Part shown: positions 7,872-54,320 of the stretch, piece after piece
How the letters are laid out: each line of letters opens with the position of its first letter
Numbering within the stretch: the stretch's first letter is position 1
Source: Chloroflexota bacterium
Lineage (GTDB): Bacteria; Chloroflexota; Anaerolineae; Anaerolineales; Villigracilaceae
DNA length: 64,000 bases
Direction: 5' to 3'
NCBI GenBank assembly: GCA_019873655.1
Contig: JAIOAU010000006.1
Span: 1-64,000, forward strand
Position numbers and translations under genes: made by a program
The notes under the pieces: model-generated
Told to the model about the DNA's origin: nothing
Database searches by the model: none
Seen by the model: only the letters and a program-made list of their open reading frames with translations

Positions 7872-7901
7872 AATATACTCCCGTCAGCGGGGAGGTGTCA
7901 A
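7872..7901 (-). promoter_or_regulatory. sigma-A promoter ahead of the ABC transporter leader
   Basis: A minus-strand TTGACA (7896-7901) and TATATT (7872-7877) are separated by 18 nt. The -35 box contains the stop codon of the MutS-like gene. Transcription would start near 7865 and meet the terminator at 7750-7718 before reaching the permease. Confidence 0.6.
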
Positions 7902-9388
7902 GGGGCGGACTCTTCCCCAAATACCTTCCGATACACATCCTCGCCGTGACTGGTGGGGAGAGGGTCGCCGGGGCGGAGTTTGAAATCGCGCTTGCGGTCG
8001 GCGCGCAAGAAGAGGGCGTTCGGCAGGGCGCGGGCGTGATACGTGCGCGCCAGTTCGTACTGGTGGGTGACGAAGAAGACTTTGACGCGCCGCTCGAGGA
8101 GCGCGTCCACTACCTGGCGGGCAATCTCGGCGCCTTCGCGCTCGTTGGTGGCGGCGAAGGACTCGTTGAACAGCATCAGCGCATGGGGGCGCAGATGGTC
8201 CACGAGGGCGCTCATGCGCTTCAATTCCTCGTCGAATTTGCCGCTCTTCATCGAGGCGTCCTCTTTGCGCCGGTAGTGAGTGAAGACGCCGCTGACCAGG
8301 TTGGCCGCAAACGCCTCGGCCGGGACGAAGAGGCCGCACTGCATCATCATCTGCGCCAGGCCGACGCTGCGCAGAAAAGTGGACTTGCCGCCCTGGTTGG
8401 CGCCGGTGATGATCACCAGGTCTTTGCCGTCGGCCTCGCCGTCGTTGCCGACCAGGCGCTTCTTCATCGTCAGCGCCAGGCAGACGTCGTACAGGCCGCG
8501 GAAGGCGTGCCGCCGCGTCTCGGCCGGCTGGGGGTCGGGGAAGGCGACCGGTTCGCCCAGGGCGGTTAGTTGTTCGTAGAGGTTCAGCGCGCCGAGGTAG
8601 AAGGCCAGTTCGCGCCGCAGGGCGTTCAGGAAACCGTCAATGTGGTCGGCGGACTGGGCGGCGGCGTTGGCGACCAGGTTGAGGCCGCGGTCGCGCAGTT
8701 CGCCCAGCGCCCGCGCCCCGTGGTCGTCGCGCGGGTGGAGGGTGTAGGAATAGACCGGCGATTTCCGCGAGAGGACGCGCTTCACCCACATCTGGTGCGA
8801 ACGCGGCTTGCGGAGGACGTAGTTCGTCCCCTCGTTGCCGCGCCCCAGTTCGGCGCTGACCAGCACGCCCTCGCGGAAGCGCAGTTGCCGCAGATGGGCC
8901 TCCACCTCGGCGAAGTAGGCTTCGTCCAGTTCCGCCTGAATCATGGCGAAGAAACGCCGGAAGCCTTCGGACTCGAAGCGAGCAGCGTGCTCATCGGCGA
9001 TTTGCCGCAGTTTGCGCAGCAGACCGACGAACATTTCCAACATTTCGACGGCGCTGCTCAGGATGCCTGCCGGGTGGCGCGAAAAGATCCCCAGCCAGCG
9101 GCGCTGTTTGTTCTGAATCGACTCGATCGGAATCTGGTAAAGGGCGCGCACTACCTCGGGGTTCTTCAGACAGTCTTGCAGGATGGCCTGCCGGTAGCGG
9201 ATGACGGCGGGATCGTCCAGGCTGCAGAGGACGGTCTGGCGCGCCGTCTCGAACAGGAACTTGTCGCCCTGCGCCATGGCCTCAAAGAGGGTGTTCAGTT
9301 CCAGGTCCTGAACGAGGTCGGCCTCGTGGGGCGGGAGCGGCGCCTGGGGGTCGAAATCGCGGTCGGGATGCATCAGGAAGACGTTCAT
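7898..9388 (-). CDS. MutS-like ATPase B (domain III/V only)
   Basis: A 496-residue protein with a helical lever/core region (about residues 20-310) and a C-terminal MutS-type ABC ATPase domain. Walker A is GANQGGKST (about 329-337). The Walker B segment reads ALMLFNESFAATN: the Asp before the catalytic Glu is Asn. A FFVTHQYEL H-loop follows. The N-terminal mismatch-binding and connector domains of true MutS are missing, and no Smr domain is present, so it is neither MutS1 nor MutS2. It overlaps the upstream MutS-like A gene by an ATGA and shares its fluoride riboswitch. The cellular role is unknown. Confidence 0.85.
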   Translation of the reverse strand: MNVFLMHPDRDFDPQAPLPPHEADLVQDLELNTLFEAMAQGDKFLFETARQTVLCSLDDPAVIRYRQAILQDCLKNPEVVRALYQIPIESIQNKQRRWLGIFSRHPAGILSSAVEMLEMFVGLLRKLRQIADEHAARFESEGFRRFFAMIQAELDEAYFAEVEAHLRQLRFREGVLVSAELGRGNEGTNYVLRKPRSHQMWVKRVLSRKSPVYSYTLHPRDDHGARALGELRDRGLNLVANAAAQSADHIDGFLNALRRELAFYLGALNLYEQLTALGEPVAFPDPQPAETRRHAFRGLYDVCLALTMKKRLVGNDGEADGKDLVIITGANQGGKSTFLRSVGLAQMMMQCGLFVPAEAFAANLVSGVFTHYRRKEDASMKSGKFDEELKRMSALVDHLRPHALMLFNESFAATNEREGAEIARQVVDALLERRVKVFFVTHQYELARTYHARALPNALFLRADRKRDFKLRPGDPLPTSHGEDVYRKVFGEESAP

Positions 9389-10911
9389 GGGCGGATGCGC
9401 TCCAGAATGTGGCGGTGGGTCAGGCGGTGTTTTTCGGCCAGCGAGAGGGCGTAGGCCAGCCCGTCGGCCGGACGGCGGACGATCTTGAAGGTGCGCTCGG
9501 CCGGGTTCTCGGGCGAGACGGTGCTGACCATGCTGACGGTCTTCTCGCTGAAGGAGGCCAGTTCGTCGAGGAAGGTCACCCAGACGCCCATGGCGTCCAG
9601 GTCCAGCAGGCGGGTCATGATCTCGCGGCTGAGGAACAGGGCGTCTTTGAGGGTGGTGGAGGAGAAAATCTCGTTCAGGATGACGATGCTGCGCGGCGTG
9701 GCCTGAGCCAGCAGGTCGCGGATGCGCACCAGGTCGTCCTGCAACTTGCCGCGCAGACTGCGGATGGTCTCCTCGCGCTCGAAGAGGGTGAAAATCCGGT
9801 CGAAGAGCGCCAGCCGCGCCTGACGCCCCGGCACGGGCAGACCGAGCGCGGCCAGGTAGTGCAACTGGGCGAACATCCGGGCGAAGGTGGTCTTGCCGCC
9901 CTGATTCGGGCCGGTGACCACGATGACGCGCTCCGCCCCGCGCAACTCGAAGTCGTTGAGGACGACCGGCGCTTCGCTCAAAGCCAGGCTGCCGGCCAGC
10001 GCCAGGTCGAAGACCTCGCGCCCGAAGATTTCACGGCTCTCGGTCACTTCCGGGAAGCAAAACGGCAGGTTCTTGTGGCTCAGGCTGGCCAGATGGTCGA
10101 GGTAGGCCACATAGAATTGCACCTCGCGGTCGAAGGCGCAGAGGGTCTCGTCCAGGAACGCCGGGTGGCGCTCGCAGAAGTTATCGAGGGCGGCGAACGG
10201 TTCGGGATACAGGCGGGCGACGAATTCCAGGATTTTCGCCTCGATGTGGTTCATGCCGGTTGCCGTGTAGAAGTCCACGCGGTAATCCTTGGCCGCTCCC
10301 TGCTTGAATTTGGCAAACGTCTTCTCGACCTCGAGGCTGTAATCCGTCTCGTCTTCGTATTTCTGGACACTGAAGCGCCCGATCTGGATGCGGATGCTGT
10401 AGCGGACGCCGGCCAGCCCGTCCTTGACCTGGCGCGCCTCGGCGGCAAGGGCCTCGAAGGCCGGGGAGCGGACGTAGTCCTGGAGGTAAGCGCGCAGGCT
10501 GCGGAAGCCGCGCGAGCGCAGGTCCGCCGTCTGGGCGGCCTCGGCCAGGCCGCGGACGGCTTCGCAGTAGGTCAGGGCGGCTTCGAGGAACCAGCCTTTG
10601 TAGTGGTACTCGAAGTCCAGTTTTTCGGAGAGCGCCAGATAGCGGCGCGTCGTCGCCATGCGCTCGGCGAAGGCTTTGACCTGCGCCAGCCAGGCCTCGT
10701 CCTGTAGATCGCGCCCGACTTCCTGGCGGTAGCGGATGGTCTCGGCGTCGGCCAGCGGCGTGTAGAAGAACGGCTTCAGGTTGTATTCTTCCTTTTTAGC
10801 CGTGACGGCGTCGATGACCTGATCGAGGTTCAGGTCGGTCAGGCAGGCGGGCGGTTCGGCCGTCTCTGGGGGGAGGATTTCTTTCTCGAATAAAATGCTG
10901 CGGAAGGTCAT
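9385..10911 (-). CDS. MutS-like ATPase A (domain III/V only)
   Basis: A 508-residue paralogue of the next gene. Walker A reads TGPNQGGKTTFARM, Walker B SIVILNEIFSSTT with Asn in place of Asp, and a TFLDEL segment follows. The N-terminal half is helical, as in MutS lever domains, and lacks the mismatch-recognition domain. The two genes probably form a heterodimer, as MutS-family ATPases act as dimers (inference). Its start lies 3 nt from the stop of the zinc-ribbon/HEAT gene. The whole unit is downstream of a fluoride riboswitch. Confidence 0.85.
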   Translation of the reverse strand: MTFRSILFEKEILPPETAEPPACLTDLNLDQVIDAVTAKKEEYNLKPFFYTPLADAETIRYRQEVGRDLQDEAWLAQVKAFAERMATTRRYLALSEKLDFEYHYKGWFLEAALTYCEAVRGLAEAAQTADLRSRGFRSLRAYLQDYVRSPAFEALAAEARQVKDGLAGVRYSIRIQIGRFSVQKYEDETDYSLEVEKTFAKFKQGAAKDYRVDFYTATGMNHIEAKILEFVARLYPEPFAALDNFCERHPAFLDETLCAFDREVQFYVAYLDHLASLSHKNLPFCFPEVTESREIFGREVFDLALAGSLALSEAPVVLNDFELRGAERVIVVTGPNQGGKTTFARMFAQLHYLAALGLPVPGRQARLALFDRIFTLFEREETIRSLRGKLQDDLVRIRDLLAQATPRSIVILNEIFSSTTLKDALFLSREIMTRLLDLDAMGVWVTFLDELASFSEKTVSMVSTVSPENPAERTFKIVRRPADGLAYALSLAEKHRLTHRHILERIRP

Positions 10912-10914
10912 CGG

Positions 10915-11418
10915 TCACCTGGTCTCTTGAATGGCTTGCAGCGCTCGGGCGGCGGCCCCGGCCACGCTGCCGAGCGGATCGCGGCTGGCCCGCGTCAGGG
11001 CGGGGACGACGGCCTCGCCGCCGATCCGTCCGAGCGCCTCGGCGGCGGCGACGCGAGCGACGAAGGGCTTGCGGTCGTCCTCCAGCAGCCGGGTCAGGGC
11101 CGGGATGGCCCGCGGGTCGCGCAGCCAGCCGAGGCCGCGCGCTCCCAGCACGAGCGGATAGGGGTCGCGGTCGCTTTCGATGAGCAGGATGAGCGGGACG
11201 ACGGCGCGCGGCTCGCGTAGCCACTTCGTCAGCACGTCCACGGCCATGCCGGCGCGGCTGGTCTCGGTGGAGAGGACGGTTTGCAGCAGCCGCTCGACGT
11301 AATCCCGCGGCGAATCGTCGCAGGGCGCGCCGCAGACCGGGCAGGGCGTCCCGGCCGGGGCGGGGGCGCGGCAGGAGGGGCAAAAGCCCAGCGCAGGGGT
11401 CGAAGAAGAGAACATCAT
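10915..11418 (-). CDS. zinc-ribbon and HEAT-repeat protein
   Basis: A 167-residue protein. C13/C16 and C26/C29 form a zinc ribbon at the N-terminus. Residues 70-167 hold about three HEAT/PBS-lyase-type helical repeats, such as DPRAIPALTRLLED and AAEALGRIGGEAVVPAL. This is a scaffold-type fold without an enzyme signature. It is the first gene behind the fluoride riboswitch; the ATG at 11418 follows the terminator's U-run by a few nucleotides, and a second ATG follows immediately. An adaptor for the two MutS-like ATPases is a reasonable guess. Confidence 0.8.
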   Translation of the reverse strand: MMFSSSTPALGFCPSCRAPAPAGTPCPVCGAPCDDSPRDYVERLLQTVLSTETSRAGMAVDVLTKWLREPRAVVPLILLIESDRDPYPLVLGARGLGWLRDPRAIPALTRLLEDDRKPFVARVAAAEALGRIGGEAVVPALTRASRDPLGSVAGAAARALQAIQETR

Positions 11419-11428
11419 CGAAACGAAA

Positions 11429-11459
11429 AGCCTCTACTGAAGCAGATTCAGTAGAGGCT
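11429..11459 (-). terminator. riboswitch expression-platform terminator
   Basis: A perfect 13-bp stem (AGCCTCTACTGAA with TTCAGTAGAGGCT, 5-nt loop) is followed on the minus strand by TTTTCGTTT, directly before the ATG of the zinc-ribbon/HEAT gene. Its 5' arm is the 3' strand of the fluoride aptamer, so folding of aptamer and terminator are mutually exclusive. Confidence 0.88.
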
Positions 11460-11505
11460 ATCAGTCTTGCAGACGGTTGCGGCGAGCCTCATCGCCGGTG
11501 CACGA
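11447..11505 (-). promoter_or_regulatory. fluoride riboswitch aptamer (crcB motif)
   Basis: The minus strand reads GGCGATGAGGCTCGCC, GCAACC, the small hairpin GTCTGCAAGAC, then TGATAGCCTCTACTG. These are the conserved blocks of the fluoride riboswitch in order (GGCGAUG-GG-, the AACC joint, a variable hairpin, CUGAU-GCCUCUAC) and they closely match, from memory, the crystallised Thermotoga petrophila aptamer. Fluoride binding would sequester GCCTCTAC and prevent the terminator at 11429-11459. An extended -10 (TGGTACAAT, box at 11511-11516) lies upstream. Confidence 0.92.
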
Positions 11506-11571
11506 GTCAGATTGTACCACAGAGAATATTGAGATGGAGCATCGAGGGCCGGGTTTCTAATATTGCTCTTA

Positions 11572-11613: not shown

Positions 11614-11640
11614 TTAGCACTCTCGGTTCGAGAGTGCTAA
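11614..11640. promoter_or_regulatory. CIRCE operator
   Basis: A perfect TTAGCACTC-N9-GAGTGCTAA inverted repeat, the binding site of HrcA, lies between the promoter and the first gene of the operon. Confidence 0.97.
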
Positions 11641-31275: not shown

Positions 31276-31324
<49 letters not shown>

Positions 31325-31960
31325 TCATTCGCGAGCCTTAGTAAAATCGAACTATATGCGGGAAACTCCTCACACAGCCAGACGGTACTCGCCGTGACCT
31401 TCACGGCAGTCAAAATCCGCTGGACATGGGGACAATCCGCAGGGAAGGCTTCTATGGATATCCCAGAAGAAGAACCCTCAGAGACTTCACGTTCGATCTC
31501 GTCGAAGACCAGACTGGAAGCCCAATGGGTCGTAGGGTTCGTAGATGGAGAAGGATGTTTCTATGTGGGCATCAATGCCCAGCCAGAGATGAAGACCGGC
31601 TATCAGGTTTTGCCAGAATTTACGATCGTTCAACATGAACGCGATGTGCAACTCCTGTATGCTCTCAAGACTTTCTTTGGCTGCGGCGTGGTGCGCCGCA
31701 ATCACGCTGACCGCATGGCGTACCGGGTGCGCAGCGTGGAACATCTCCGAGAACGCATCATTCCGTTCTTCGAGAAGCATCCTTTGAAATCCAAAAAACG
31801 CCTGGATTTCTTGAAATTCAGGAAAATCCTGCTCCTGATGGAGCGCAACGAACACTTGACCCCGGATGGCATCGAGAAAATCCGCGCCATCGCTTCCCAG
31901 ATGAATACAGGACGAGAAAGATAAAGTCCGGCTCCCCTGGAAACAGGGCGAGGCAAACCG
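31325..31960 (+). mobile_element. group I intron at 23S position 1931 (E. coli numbering)
   Basis: A 636-nt insertion. The 5' exon ends CTAAGGT and the intron carries GCCTTAG (31335-31341), which pairs with it as P1 including the required U-G wobble at the splice site. The intron ends in G (31960) before AGCGAAATTCC. The core elements are TATATGCGGGAAACTCC (P/Q), CACAGCCAGACGG (R) and AGATAAAGTCC (S). A LAGLIDADG gene is inserted between R and S. The insertion point is, from memory, the same as that of Thermotoga L1931 introns. Confidence 0.93.
31454..31924 (+). CDS. LAGLIDADG homing endonuclease of the 23S intron
   Basis: A 156-residue protein with one LAGLIDADG motif, VVGFVDGEGCFYV (about residues 29-41), so it probably acts as a homodimer. 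TIVQHERDVQLLYALKTFFG and RVRSVEHLRERIIPFFEKHP are typical of the family. It would cut intronless 23S genes at the insertion site and spread the intron. The ATG at 31454 follows AGGGAAGG; a GTG at 31394 is in frame but lies in the ribozyme core. Its stop TAA is embedded in the S element of the intron. The reading frame is intact, so the element may be active. Confidence 0.92.
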   Translation: MDIPEEEPSETSRSISSKTRLEAQWVVGFVDGEGCFYVGINAQPEMKTGYQVLPEFTIVQHERDVQLLYALKTFFGCGVVRRNHADRMAYRVRSVEHLRERIIPFFEKHPLKSKKRLDFLKFRKILLLMERNEHLTPDGIEKIRAIASQMNTGRER

Positions 31961-51893: not shown

Positions 51894-54320
51894 TCAGGCC
51901 GAGGCAATCTTTACGACGGTCACTCCCGCGCCGCCTTCTTTTTCTCCGCCCTCCTCGAACGAGTGGACGTGGGGGTGATTGCGCAGGGCTTCGCGGATGA
52001 CTTGCCGCAATTTGCCGGTTCCCTTGCCGTGGATGATGCGCACGAAGGGCATGCCGGCCAGGAAGGCGCGGTCGAGGTAGTCGTCGAGGCGGTCGAGGGC
52101 CTCGTCGGCGGTCTGGCCGCGCAGGTCGAGTTCCAGGCCGGGCGAGGCGGGGAGGGAGAGACGGCGGCCGGTCGCGGGCGGCGGAGTCTCGGTCTCGGTG
52201 GAGGGCGCGGCGGCGGATTCCGCTTCCTCTTTTCTCTTCAACTCCTCCCGGCGGACGCGCAGTCGGAGCGCGCCGGCCTGGACTTCGGCCTGCTCCTCGT
52301 CGAGGGCCAGAATCACGCCCTCGACGCCGAGGTGACGCAGGAGAACCCGGTCGCCCGCGGCGAGCGGCCGCTGGCCGGAGGGGGGACGTCCTTCGTCGGC
52401 GGCCTTTCTCCGTCTGACCGGCCTCTCGATTTTCTCTTGCAGTTCTTCCGCCTGCTCCTCCACGGCTTTGACCGCTTCGAGCGGCTGGCGGGCTTTCTTG
52501 AGTTCCTGTTTGAGGGTCTCGATCTGCGCCTTGAGGACTTCGAGTTCGAGCAGGCCTTCGGCGCGGGCCTTTTCGAGTTCGGCCTGGCGCTCGGCCTCGA
52601 TCTGCTCCAGGCGGGCGGCCAGTTCGCGCTCCAGGCGGCGGGCCTCGGCGCGGGCTTTTTCGGCCTTCTCGCGCTCGCGGAAGGCCAGTTTGCGCTGGCG
52701 GTGAATGTCGGCCAGGAGTTTGTCGGCGCGCAGTTCGGCGGGGTCGATTTCGGCGCGGGCGGCCTCGATGACCGCCTGCGGCAGTCCCAGCCGGGCCGCG
52801 ATGGCCAGGGCGTTGGAGCGGCCGGGCAGGCCGAGGGTCAGTTTGTAGGTCGGGCGCAGGGTTTGCAAGTCGAATTCGAGCGAGGCGTTGACAACGCCCG
52901 GTGTAGTGTGGGCAAACGTCTTCAGTTCCGGGTAGTGGGTGGCGACGAAGGTGGTCGCCCGCCGCTCGAGCAGTTCCTTCAAGATGGCGCGCGCCAGCGC
53001 CGAACCTTCGGCCGGGTCGGTGCCGGCGCCGAGTTCGTCCAGAATGACCAGCGAGCGCCAGTCGGCTTTCTTCAAGATGGCGACGATGTTGCGCATGTGG
53101 CCGGAGAAAGTCGAGAGCGATTGTTCGATGGATTGTTCGTCGCCGATGTCGGCGAAGATGGCCTGGAAGCAGGCCAGGGCCGAGCCGGATTGGGCCGGGA
53201 TGTGCAGTCCGGTCTGGGCCATCGCCGCCAGCAGGCCGACCGTCTTGAGGGTGACCGTCTTGCCGCCGGTGTTGGGGCCGGTGAGGACGACCGCCAGCGT
53301 CCCTTCGGGCGGGTCGATGTTGATGGGGACGACCGTGGCCGGGTCGAGCAGCGGGTGGCGGGCGTTCAAAAGGCGAATGGACGATTGACGGACGATTGAC
53401 GATTTCCCATCGTCCGCGCTCCGTCGTTTGCCATCCATTTTCAGCAGAATCGGCTCGCAGCCGCGCACGGCTTCGGCGTATTTGGCCTTGGCGAAGGCCA
53501 GGTCGAGTTCGGCCAGGGCGGCGATGCCGGGGAGAATCAGCCCGGCCAGCGCGCCGACCTGGGCCGAGAGGGCGGTCAGGACGCGGCGGATTTCGTCCCG
53601 CTCGGCGATTTGGGCTTCGCGGTAGGCGTTGTTGAGTTCGACGACCGCCAGCGGTTCGATGAAGAGGGTCGCGCCGGTGGAGGATTGGTCGTGGACGATG
53701 GCCTTGACCTGCCCCTTGAATTCGGCCCGCAGCGGGATGACGTAGCGGCCGTCGCGCTGGGTGATGACGGCGTCTTGCAGTTTGGAAGCGGTCTCGGCGT
53801 CGGTCAGGTAGCGCTGCAGGCGGCTCATCAGCCGGTCGTGGGCGATGCGCACCTGACGGCGCAGGTCGGCCAGGACGGGCGAGGCGCTGTCGAGCACCTC
53901 GCCGTTCTCGGCGATGCAGCGGCCGATGGCCTCGACCAGTTCGGGGGCGGCGGGCAGGCGCAGGGCGATCTCGGCCAGATGAGGGTAGTCGTCGGCGTGT
54001 TTTTCGAGGGTGCGGCGCAGCCGTCCGCAGGCGATGAGGGTGGACTGGATGTCGAGCAGTTCCTGCGGTTCGAGGACGCCGCCGCGGGCGGCCAGGTCGA
54101 CCTGCTCGCGGATGTCGTGCGCGCCGCCGATGGTCAGGTCGGTCAGGGAGAGCAGTTTGCGGGCCTCGGTCGTCTCGGCCAGGCGGCCGACGGCTTCTTC
54201 GTAGTCGGCGGTCGGCTGGAGGGCGAGGGCCAGTTCGGCGGAGGCGGAAAAGTCGCAGAATTCGGCCAGACGGGCCAAAATTTTGGGGAATTCGAGGACG
54301 GCGAGGGTTTTGGAATCCAT
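51894..54320 (-). CDS. mutS2: MutS2 endonuclease/ATPase
   Basis: An 808-residue MutS2. Helical lever (about 1-300), Walker A GPNTGGKTVTLKTVGL, Walker B VILDELGAGTDPAEGSAL, the H-loop ATHYPELKTFAH, a KOW-like SAADRVLLRHLG-type segment (AAGDRVLLRHLGVEG) and a C-terminal Smr domain LDLRGQTADEAL with HGKGTGKLR. MutS2 suppresses recombination and, in other species, rescues collided ribosomes. Between lever and ATPase lies a short in-frame stretch KMDGKRRSADDGKSSIVRQS encoded by minirepeat-like DNA (53380-53440). Confidence 0.95.
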   Translation of the reverse strand: MDSKTLAVLEFPKILARLAEFCDFSASAELALALQPTADYEEAVGRLAETTEARKLLSLTDLTIGGAHDIREQVDLAARGGVLEPQELLDIQSTLIACGRLRRTLEKHADDYPHLAEIALRLPAAPELVEAIGRCIAENGEVLDSASPVLADLRRQVRIAHDRLMSRLQRYLTDAETASKLQDAVITQRDGRYVIPLRAEFKGQVKAIVHDQSSTGATLFIEPLAVVELNNAYREAQIAERDEIRRVLTALSAQVGALAGLILPGIAALAELDLAFAKAKYAEAVRGCEPILLKMDGKRRSADDGKSSIVRQSSIRLLNARHPLLDPATVVPINIDPPEGTLAVVLTGPNTGGKTVTLKTVGLLAAMAQTGLHIPAQSGSALACFQAIFADIGDEQSIEQSLSTFSGHMRNIVAILKKADWRSLVILDELGAGTDPAEGSALARAILKELLERRATTFVATHYPELKTFAHTTPGVVNASLEFDLQTLRPTYKLTLGLPGRSNALAIAARLGLPQAVIEAARAEIDPAELRADKLLADIHRQRKLAFREREKAEKARAEARRLERELAARLEQIEAERQAELEKARAEGLLELEVLKAQIETLKQELKKARQPLEAVKAVEEQAEELQEKIERPVRRRKAADEGRPPSGQRPLAAGDRVLLRHLGVEGVILALDEEQAEVQAGALRLRVRREELKRKEEAESAAAPSTETETPPPATGRRLSLPASPGLELDLRGQTADEALDRLDDYLDRAFLAGMPFVRIIHGKGTGKLRQVIREALRNHPHVHSFEEGGEKEGGAGVTVVKIASA

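Follow-up and report, generated by a model that had tools for sequence, protein, structure and literature searches.

Riboswitches of the fluoride class raise expression of their genes when fluoride is bound, and accounts of fluoride resistance have so far centred on export, pH balance, and the over-production of sensitive enzymes. According to Weinberg et al. (2010; PMC2864571), the crcB motifs that define these switches also precede genes "involved in DNA repair (mutS)". Since mutS genes behind crcB motifs were thus reported in 2010, the association is not new, and an earlier note on the DNA treated here, which brought up such a link, is right on this point. A 2020 review brings in DNA-repair proteins only where the early prediction is recounted, term searches of a 2024 review turned up neither mismatch nor DNA repair, and searches of the open literature, which omits most subscription papers, gave no paper on "fluoride riboswitch" together with mutS or MutS-like. 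What, then, are the MutS-like proteins that lie behind fluoride riboswitches?

The window, that is, the whole stretch of 64,000 nucleotides from a Chloroflexota bacterium that was analysed, carries one such arrangement on its reverse strand, where all the features described below for the leader and the operon are located. The aptamer proper (11445-11505) matches the full Rfam covariance model RF01734 (positions 1-64) and scores 41.9 bits where the gathering score is 34 (E = 3.3e-8), which bears out the claim of a fluoride riboswitch in the earlier note; the three crcB aptamer blocks quoted there are all present in the sequence. The range given there for the riboswitch, 11429-11516, encloses the aptamer and, in addition, a TACAAT -10-like box and a terminator. 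The aptamer hairpin, GGCG-AUGAGGCU-CGCC (11481-11496), keeps 98.1% of its pairs in 26 sequences, and its loop holds the 5′ arm of a pseudoknot, GAGGC (11486-11490, 99.2% of pairs kept), whose 3′ arm is GCCUC (11454-11458). When 26 aptamers from Chloroflexota are compared, standard pairs fill 98.7% of the cells of the two helices and the loop pseudoknot, this pairing falls to about 50% if partner columns are shifted by one, and compensatory double changes occupy 40 cells as against 12.4 in shuffles. Both sides change in three of the five pseudoknot pairs among these aptamers, with 99.2% of cells paired. Within the fluoride riboswitch class the switch is unexceptional, and that fluoride should be its ligand follows from this established class.

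How can such an aptamer control the genes behind it? An intrinsic terminator (11429-11459), whose 13-bp stem closes a 5-nt loop and is followed by a T-rich tail, stops 10 nt short of the ATG at 11418. It is the overlapping terminator that had been proposed before the first ATG, and its stem contains the 3′ arm of the pseudoknot; the fold of the leader is better than those of 200 out of 200 shuffles (z = -3.1). Since GCCUC is part of both the pseudoknot and the 5′ arm of the terminator, the two structures are mutually exclusive, and this arrangement would make a fluoride ON switch. As long as the pseudoknot is unstable, GCCUC (11458-11454) would pair downstream and the terminator would form; if the aptamer holds GCCUC against GAGGC of the loop, the terminator would not form and transcription would read through into the operon. 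At 11511-11516 lies a TACAAT box resembling a -10 element, with TG one base upstream (TGGTACAAT, an extended -10 form), as read from the consensus only. The box is absent from the output of a sigma-70 scan, which requires a -35 match. RNA started from this box would begin near the 5′ end of the aptamer.

The operon consists of three genes, and its content agrees with what had been noticed at first, namely a zinc-ribbon/HEAT gene and two MutS-like ATPases. The first gene (10915-11418) encodes a protein of 167 aa with HEAT repeats (Pfam HEAT_2, 1.9e-19), a CPSC...CPVC motif and a weak DZR zinc-ribbon match, and no paralogue of it was found in the genome. The other two, which are named MutA and MutB here, encode ATPase subunits of 508 aa (9385-10911; Pfam MutS_V, 9.5e-18) and 496 aa (7898-9388; MutS_V, 9.9e-22), and the start of MutB overlaps the stop of MutA by 4 nt. 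ABC-transporter genes begin 329 nt beyond the operon, after a promoter-like site (11 of 12) at 7901-7872, and are therefore taken as a separate unit. On the other side, between the riboswitch operon and divergent hrcA-grpE-dnaK-dnaJ-like genes, there is a CIRCE-type inverted repeat, TTAGCACTC-N9-GAGTGCTAA (11614-11640 of the window), which is ordinary heat-shock control. Elsewhere in the window, a group I intron is present in the 23S rRNA gene (31292-31950; RF00028, 61.6 bits).

Neither a CrcB/Fluc gene nor a ClC gene was found in the operon, as stated before, and the same holds for the whole genome, which is 99.8% complete. The genome has four MutS_V genes, that is, the MutA/MutB pair and two full-length relatives, which are taken as canonical MutS (contig C13) and MutS2 (52749-53291 in the window). 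Nothing convincing as a riboswitch was found at either of these two loci; the model gives 11.6 bits (E = 0.03) at MutS2. A second riboswitch-like site of this genome (L007, 6447-6517; C22:22446-22516 in the genome's own coordinates) lies before an MFS transporter gene and scores 26.9 bits by Rfam, which is below the cut-off.

Is the arrangement peculiar to this bacterium? A survey of the genes downstream of crcB matches in Chloroflexota had been suggested. RF01734 matches occur in 128 of 400 Chloroflexota genomes, and MutA and MutB lie shortly downstream in eight extracted riboswitch regions (L009, L010, L013, L014, L016, L024, L025 and L029), with one other gene in between in L013 and L014. 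L009 and L010, which are relatives, share the order riboswitch-MutA-MutB-CrcB-like gene, and the CrcB of L009 is confirmed by Pfam. MutA is found in 43 of the 400 genomes; a riboswitch match is present in 34 of these 43 and in 94 of the 357 others (Fisher p = 2e-11, kinship ignored). Two further regions have a single hybrid gene behind the fluoride riboswitch instead of the pair (L015, 6229-7752; L039, 6288-8030), in which the N-terminal half of MutA is joined to the ATPase half of MutB with different break points. To judge from their make-up, these genes would fit MutB as the carrier of the more active ATPase, while in another reading they may be assembly artefacts. Relatives of the zinc-ribbon/HEAT gene and DUF6062-type genes are also seen in fluoride-riboswitch operons without MutA or MutB (L017, L018, L056, L072, L081 and others).

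In a wider scan, of 84,980 species genomes, at least 583 relatives of MutA were obtained, and the loci of the best 80 were studied. According to record titles, these 80 come from Chloroflexi, Desulfobacterales, Spirochaetes, Firmicutes, Acidobacteria, Actinomycetota, Bacteroidetes, Alphaproteobacteria and others, although some labels may be wrong because most of the records are metagenome bins. MutB is the next gene after MutA in 79 of these best 80 loci, and the remaining one, L160, is cut by a contig end. By a covariance model built here, 56 of the 78 evaluable loci have a same-strand riboswitch no more than 700 nt upstream of MutA, as against 3.7 expected from random spread. None was found within this distance in the other 22, 11 of which have a riboswitch elsewhere in the examined stretch and 11 nowhere in it. 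Independently of this model, 73 of 79 MutA genomes have an RF01734 match of Rfam with E of 0.001 or less, 66 of them above the cut-off; one of the genomes holds two of the loci. One locus, L093, repeats the order riboswitch-zinc ribbon/HEAT-MutA-MutB with a terminator-like stretch of its own. As a separate observation, the Acidobacteriaceae bacterium TAA 166 (G472, locus L161) has 20 fluoride-riboswitch matches, most of which are gathered within a single 130-kb part of contig C1 and make up a large fluoride island. Single in-frame stops were noticed in MutA of L110, L126 and L162; recoding was rejected there, and sequencing error or decay is likelier, because the stops are at three unrelated positions and of two codon types.

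The neighbours of the pair at the 80 loci include CrcB (12 loci), Na+/H+ antiporters and DUF6062 (9 each), zinc-ribbon/HEAT proteins and formate-hydrogenlyase-type subunits (8 each), and UspA (7). MFS transporter genes recur at 18 loci, and they could include an unrecognised transporter for the fluoride response. An unexplained role of the two ATPases in fluoride stress, as the earlier note had supposed, is made more probable by the conservation of riboswitch, MutA and MutB across phyla next to CrcB, Na+/H+ antiporter and formate-hydrogenlyase-type genes. It might be imagined that the pair is a stand-in for a missing exporter. This idea was ruled out: among 40 MutA genomes, 22 have CrcB and 18 lack it, so that the pair neither needs nor replaces the CrcB exporter. 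It is very improbable that the riboswitch of the present genome, though real, is decayed or borrowed and that the MutS-like genes are passengers without a role in fluoride stress, since, whatever the lack of CrcB here and the same-genus relative L008 with a riboswitch before a CrcB-cluster gene and no MutA may suggest, aptamer and terminator are intact and the pair recurs behind riboswitches across phyla.

What kind of proteins are MutA and MutB? In a tree of the ATPase region, they form a joint group (support 100/99) to which neither MutS1 and MutS2 nor two KamC-like proteins belong, and the MutA clade has support of 98/98; the branching order outside the joint group is unsure because long branches were flagged. 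MutS_V is the sole MutS domain found by Pfam in either protein, with neither MutS_I, MutS_II nor Smr. Their scores are also far below the cut-offs of NCBIfam: 71 and 73 bits against 641.7 for the mutS1 equivalog, 58 and 71 bits against 400 for MutS2, and for KamC (NF052383) 80.8 bits in MutB and 48.7 in MutA against 300. In the Walker B motif, Asn-Glu replaces Asp-Glu invariantly in both subunits (45 and 46 sequences). At the switch His, MutA has invariant Thr-Phe for Thr-His while MutB keeps the His, and the position of Ser668-Thr of MutS is Gly-Lys in both subunits with few exceptions. Asp693, His728 and Ser668 are among the residues that MutS needs for signalling between its DNA and ATP sites (reviewed in PMC3848065). 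Predicted models of MutA and MutB (mean pLDDT 83-85) align over their whole length with structures of MutS and MutS2, where the placement of domains is approximate because the Foldseek rmsd is large (9-20 A). A beta hairpin between long helices in these models (residues 171-184 of MutA and 175-193 of MutB) is read as a clamp. The clamp segment of MutB is basic, with a mean net charge of +5.2 in 45 sequences, and is the lowest-confidence part of the MutB model; that of MutA is nearly neutral. As a defined, probably non-repair MutS lineage, the pair appears undescribed in the open literature searched, outside which most subscription papers lie.

From these observations, the best explanation, to which we give a probability of roughly 0.82, is that the operon would be induced by fluoride under a transcriptional ON riboswitch and that MutA and MutB are a MutS-like lineage of their own, tied to fluoride riboswitches and predicted to act as a heterodimer for fluoride tolerance. 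Within this explanation, it is highly probable that the predicted heterodimer serves fluoride tolerance and not mismatch repair. The probability covers the whole explanation except one further idea, which is unlikely as it stands and concerns how the pair may work: it may be a clamp ATPase that embraces nucleic acids and has a Mg2+ site retuned by the Walker-B Asp to Asn change of both subunits. Such a site would let it go on switching where an ordinary ATPase of the MutS type would be trapped by Mg-fluoride species. This idea is weak and is based on one substitution. It is somewhat more doubtful still that MutA/MutB is a previously uncharacterised MutS-type heterodimer made to work under Mg-fluoride poisoning and thus a further arm of fluoride resistance. 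If this were true, such an arm would add to export, to proton/ion balance and to the over-production of sensitive enzymes, and in the present genome without Fluc and ClC genes it would be a main part of the fluoride response.

Alternatively, MutA/MutB may be a remodeller of proteins or ribosomes and may release metalloenzymes trapped by fluoride, or machines that have stalled, in a role like that of KamC or of MutS2 on collided ribosomes, with its DNA-clamp-like shape being incidental. We regard this as a serious possibility, though not a likely one. It would fit the length of the two proteins and their missing mismatch domain, the fold matches include structures of MutS2, one of them on a collided disome, and Mg-phosphate enzymes such as enolase are known targets of fluoride (PMC11139923), but the neighbourhoods of the 80 loci share no constant target gene, and the Smr domain of MutS2 is missing from MutA and MutB. 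KamC is the top-scoring NCBIfam model for MutB, though far under its cut-off; the KamC profile, however, gives MutS2 and MutS1 about 165-250 bits and MutB about 65-90, so that there is no special kinship between KamC and MutB, and this kinship was rejected. In addition, KamC-like proteins keep the Walker-B Asp.

It is improbable that the pair carries out DNA mismatch repair and owes its induction to DNA damage under fluoride stress, a reading implied by the 2010 annotation "DNA repair (mutS)". Such a DNA-damaging stress was proposed in that paper (PMC2864571), and the MutS_V ATPase domain and the clamp-like region, basic in MutB, are retained; against this, MutS_I and MutS_II were not found, key switch residues are replaced in both subunits, and canonical MutS and MutS2 are encoded elsewhere in the genome with no convincing riboswitch at either. 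"MutS" annotations in fluoride operons should be taken with caution as to a mismatch-repair reading. To return to the preferred reading of a fluoride-tolerance heterodimer, a conserved ATPase pair tied to a fluoride switch suggests a mechanism further to those described so far, and its position behind fluoride switches in many phyla is a sign that fluoride resistance has an arm not yet characterised.

How, finally, does the locus compare with known systems? The crcB-mutS arrangement of Weinberg et al. (2010; PMC2864571) has the same riboswitch class, the same logic of an overlapping terminator and a downstream gene annotated as MutS; its main text devotes one phrase to it and says nothing of a gene pair, of an absent mismatch domain, of altered ATPase residues or of a zinc-ribbon/HEAT gene, and its mutS genes may belong to the present family. 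KamC, the reactivase ATPase of lysine 5,6-aminomutase, is likewise a MutS_V protein of about 500 aa, but it differs in the score of MutB (80.8 bits against 300), in a profile nearer to MutS2, and in the Walker-B Asp of its relatives. MutS2 resembles the pair in the missing mismatch domain and a similar core length, whereas MutA and MutB have no Smr domain and form a separate clade. With MutS1, they share ATPase domain V, the long-helix lever, the clamp-like region and fold matches over the whole query; they differ from it in that mismatch and connector domains were not detected, the Walker-B Asp is Asn, the Ser668 position is Gly and, in MutA only, His728 is Phe. Clamp heterodimers of the Msh4/Msh5 type, which are meiotic proteins of eukaryotes, are built from two non-identical MutS-like subunits without mismatch recognition, a general feature in which MutA and MutB resemble them.
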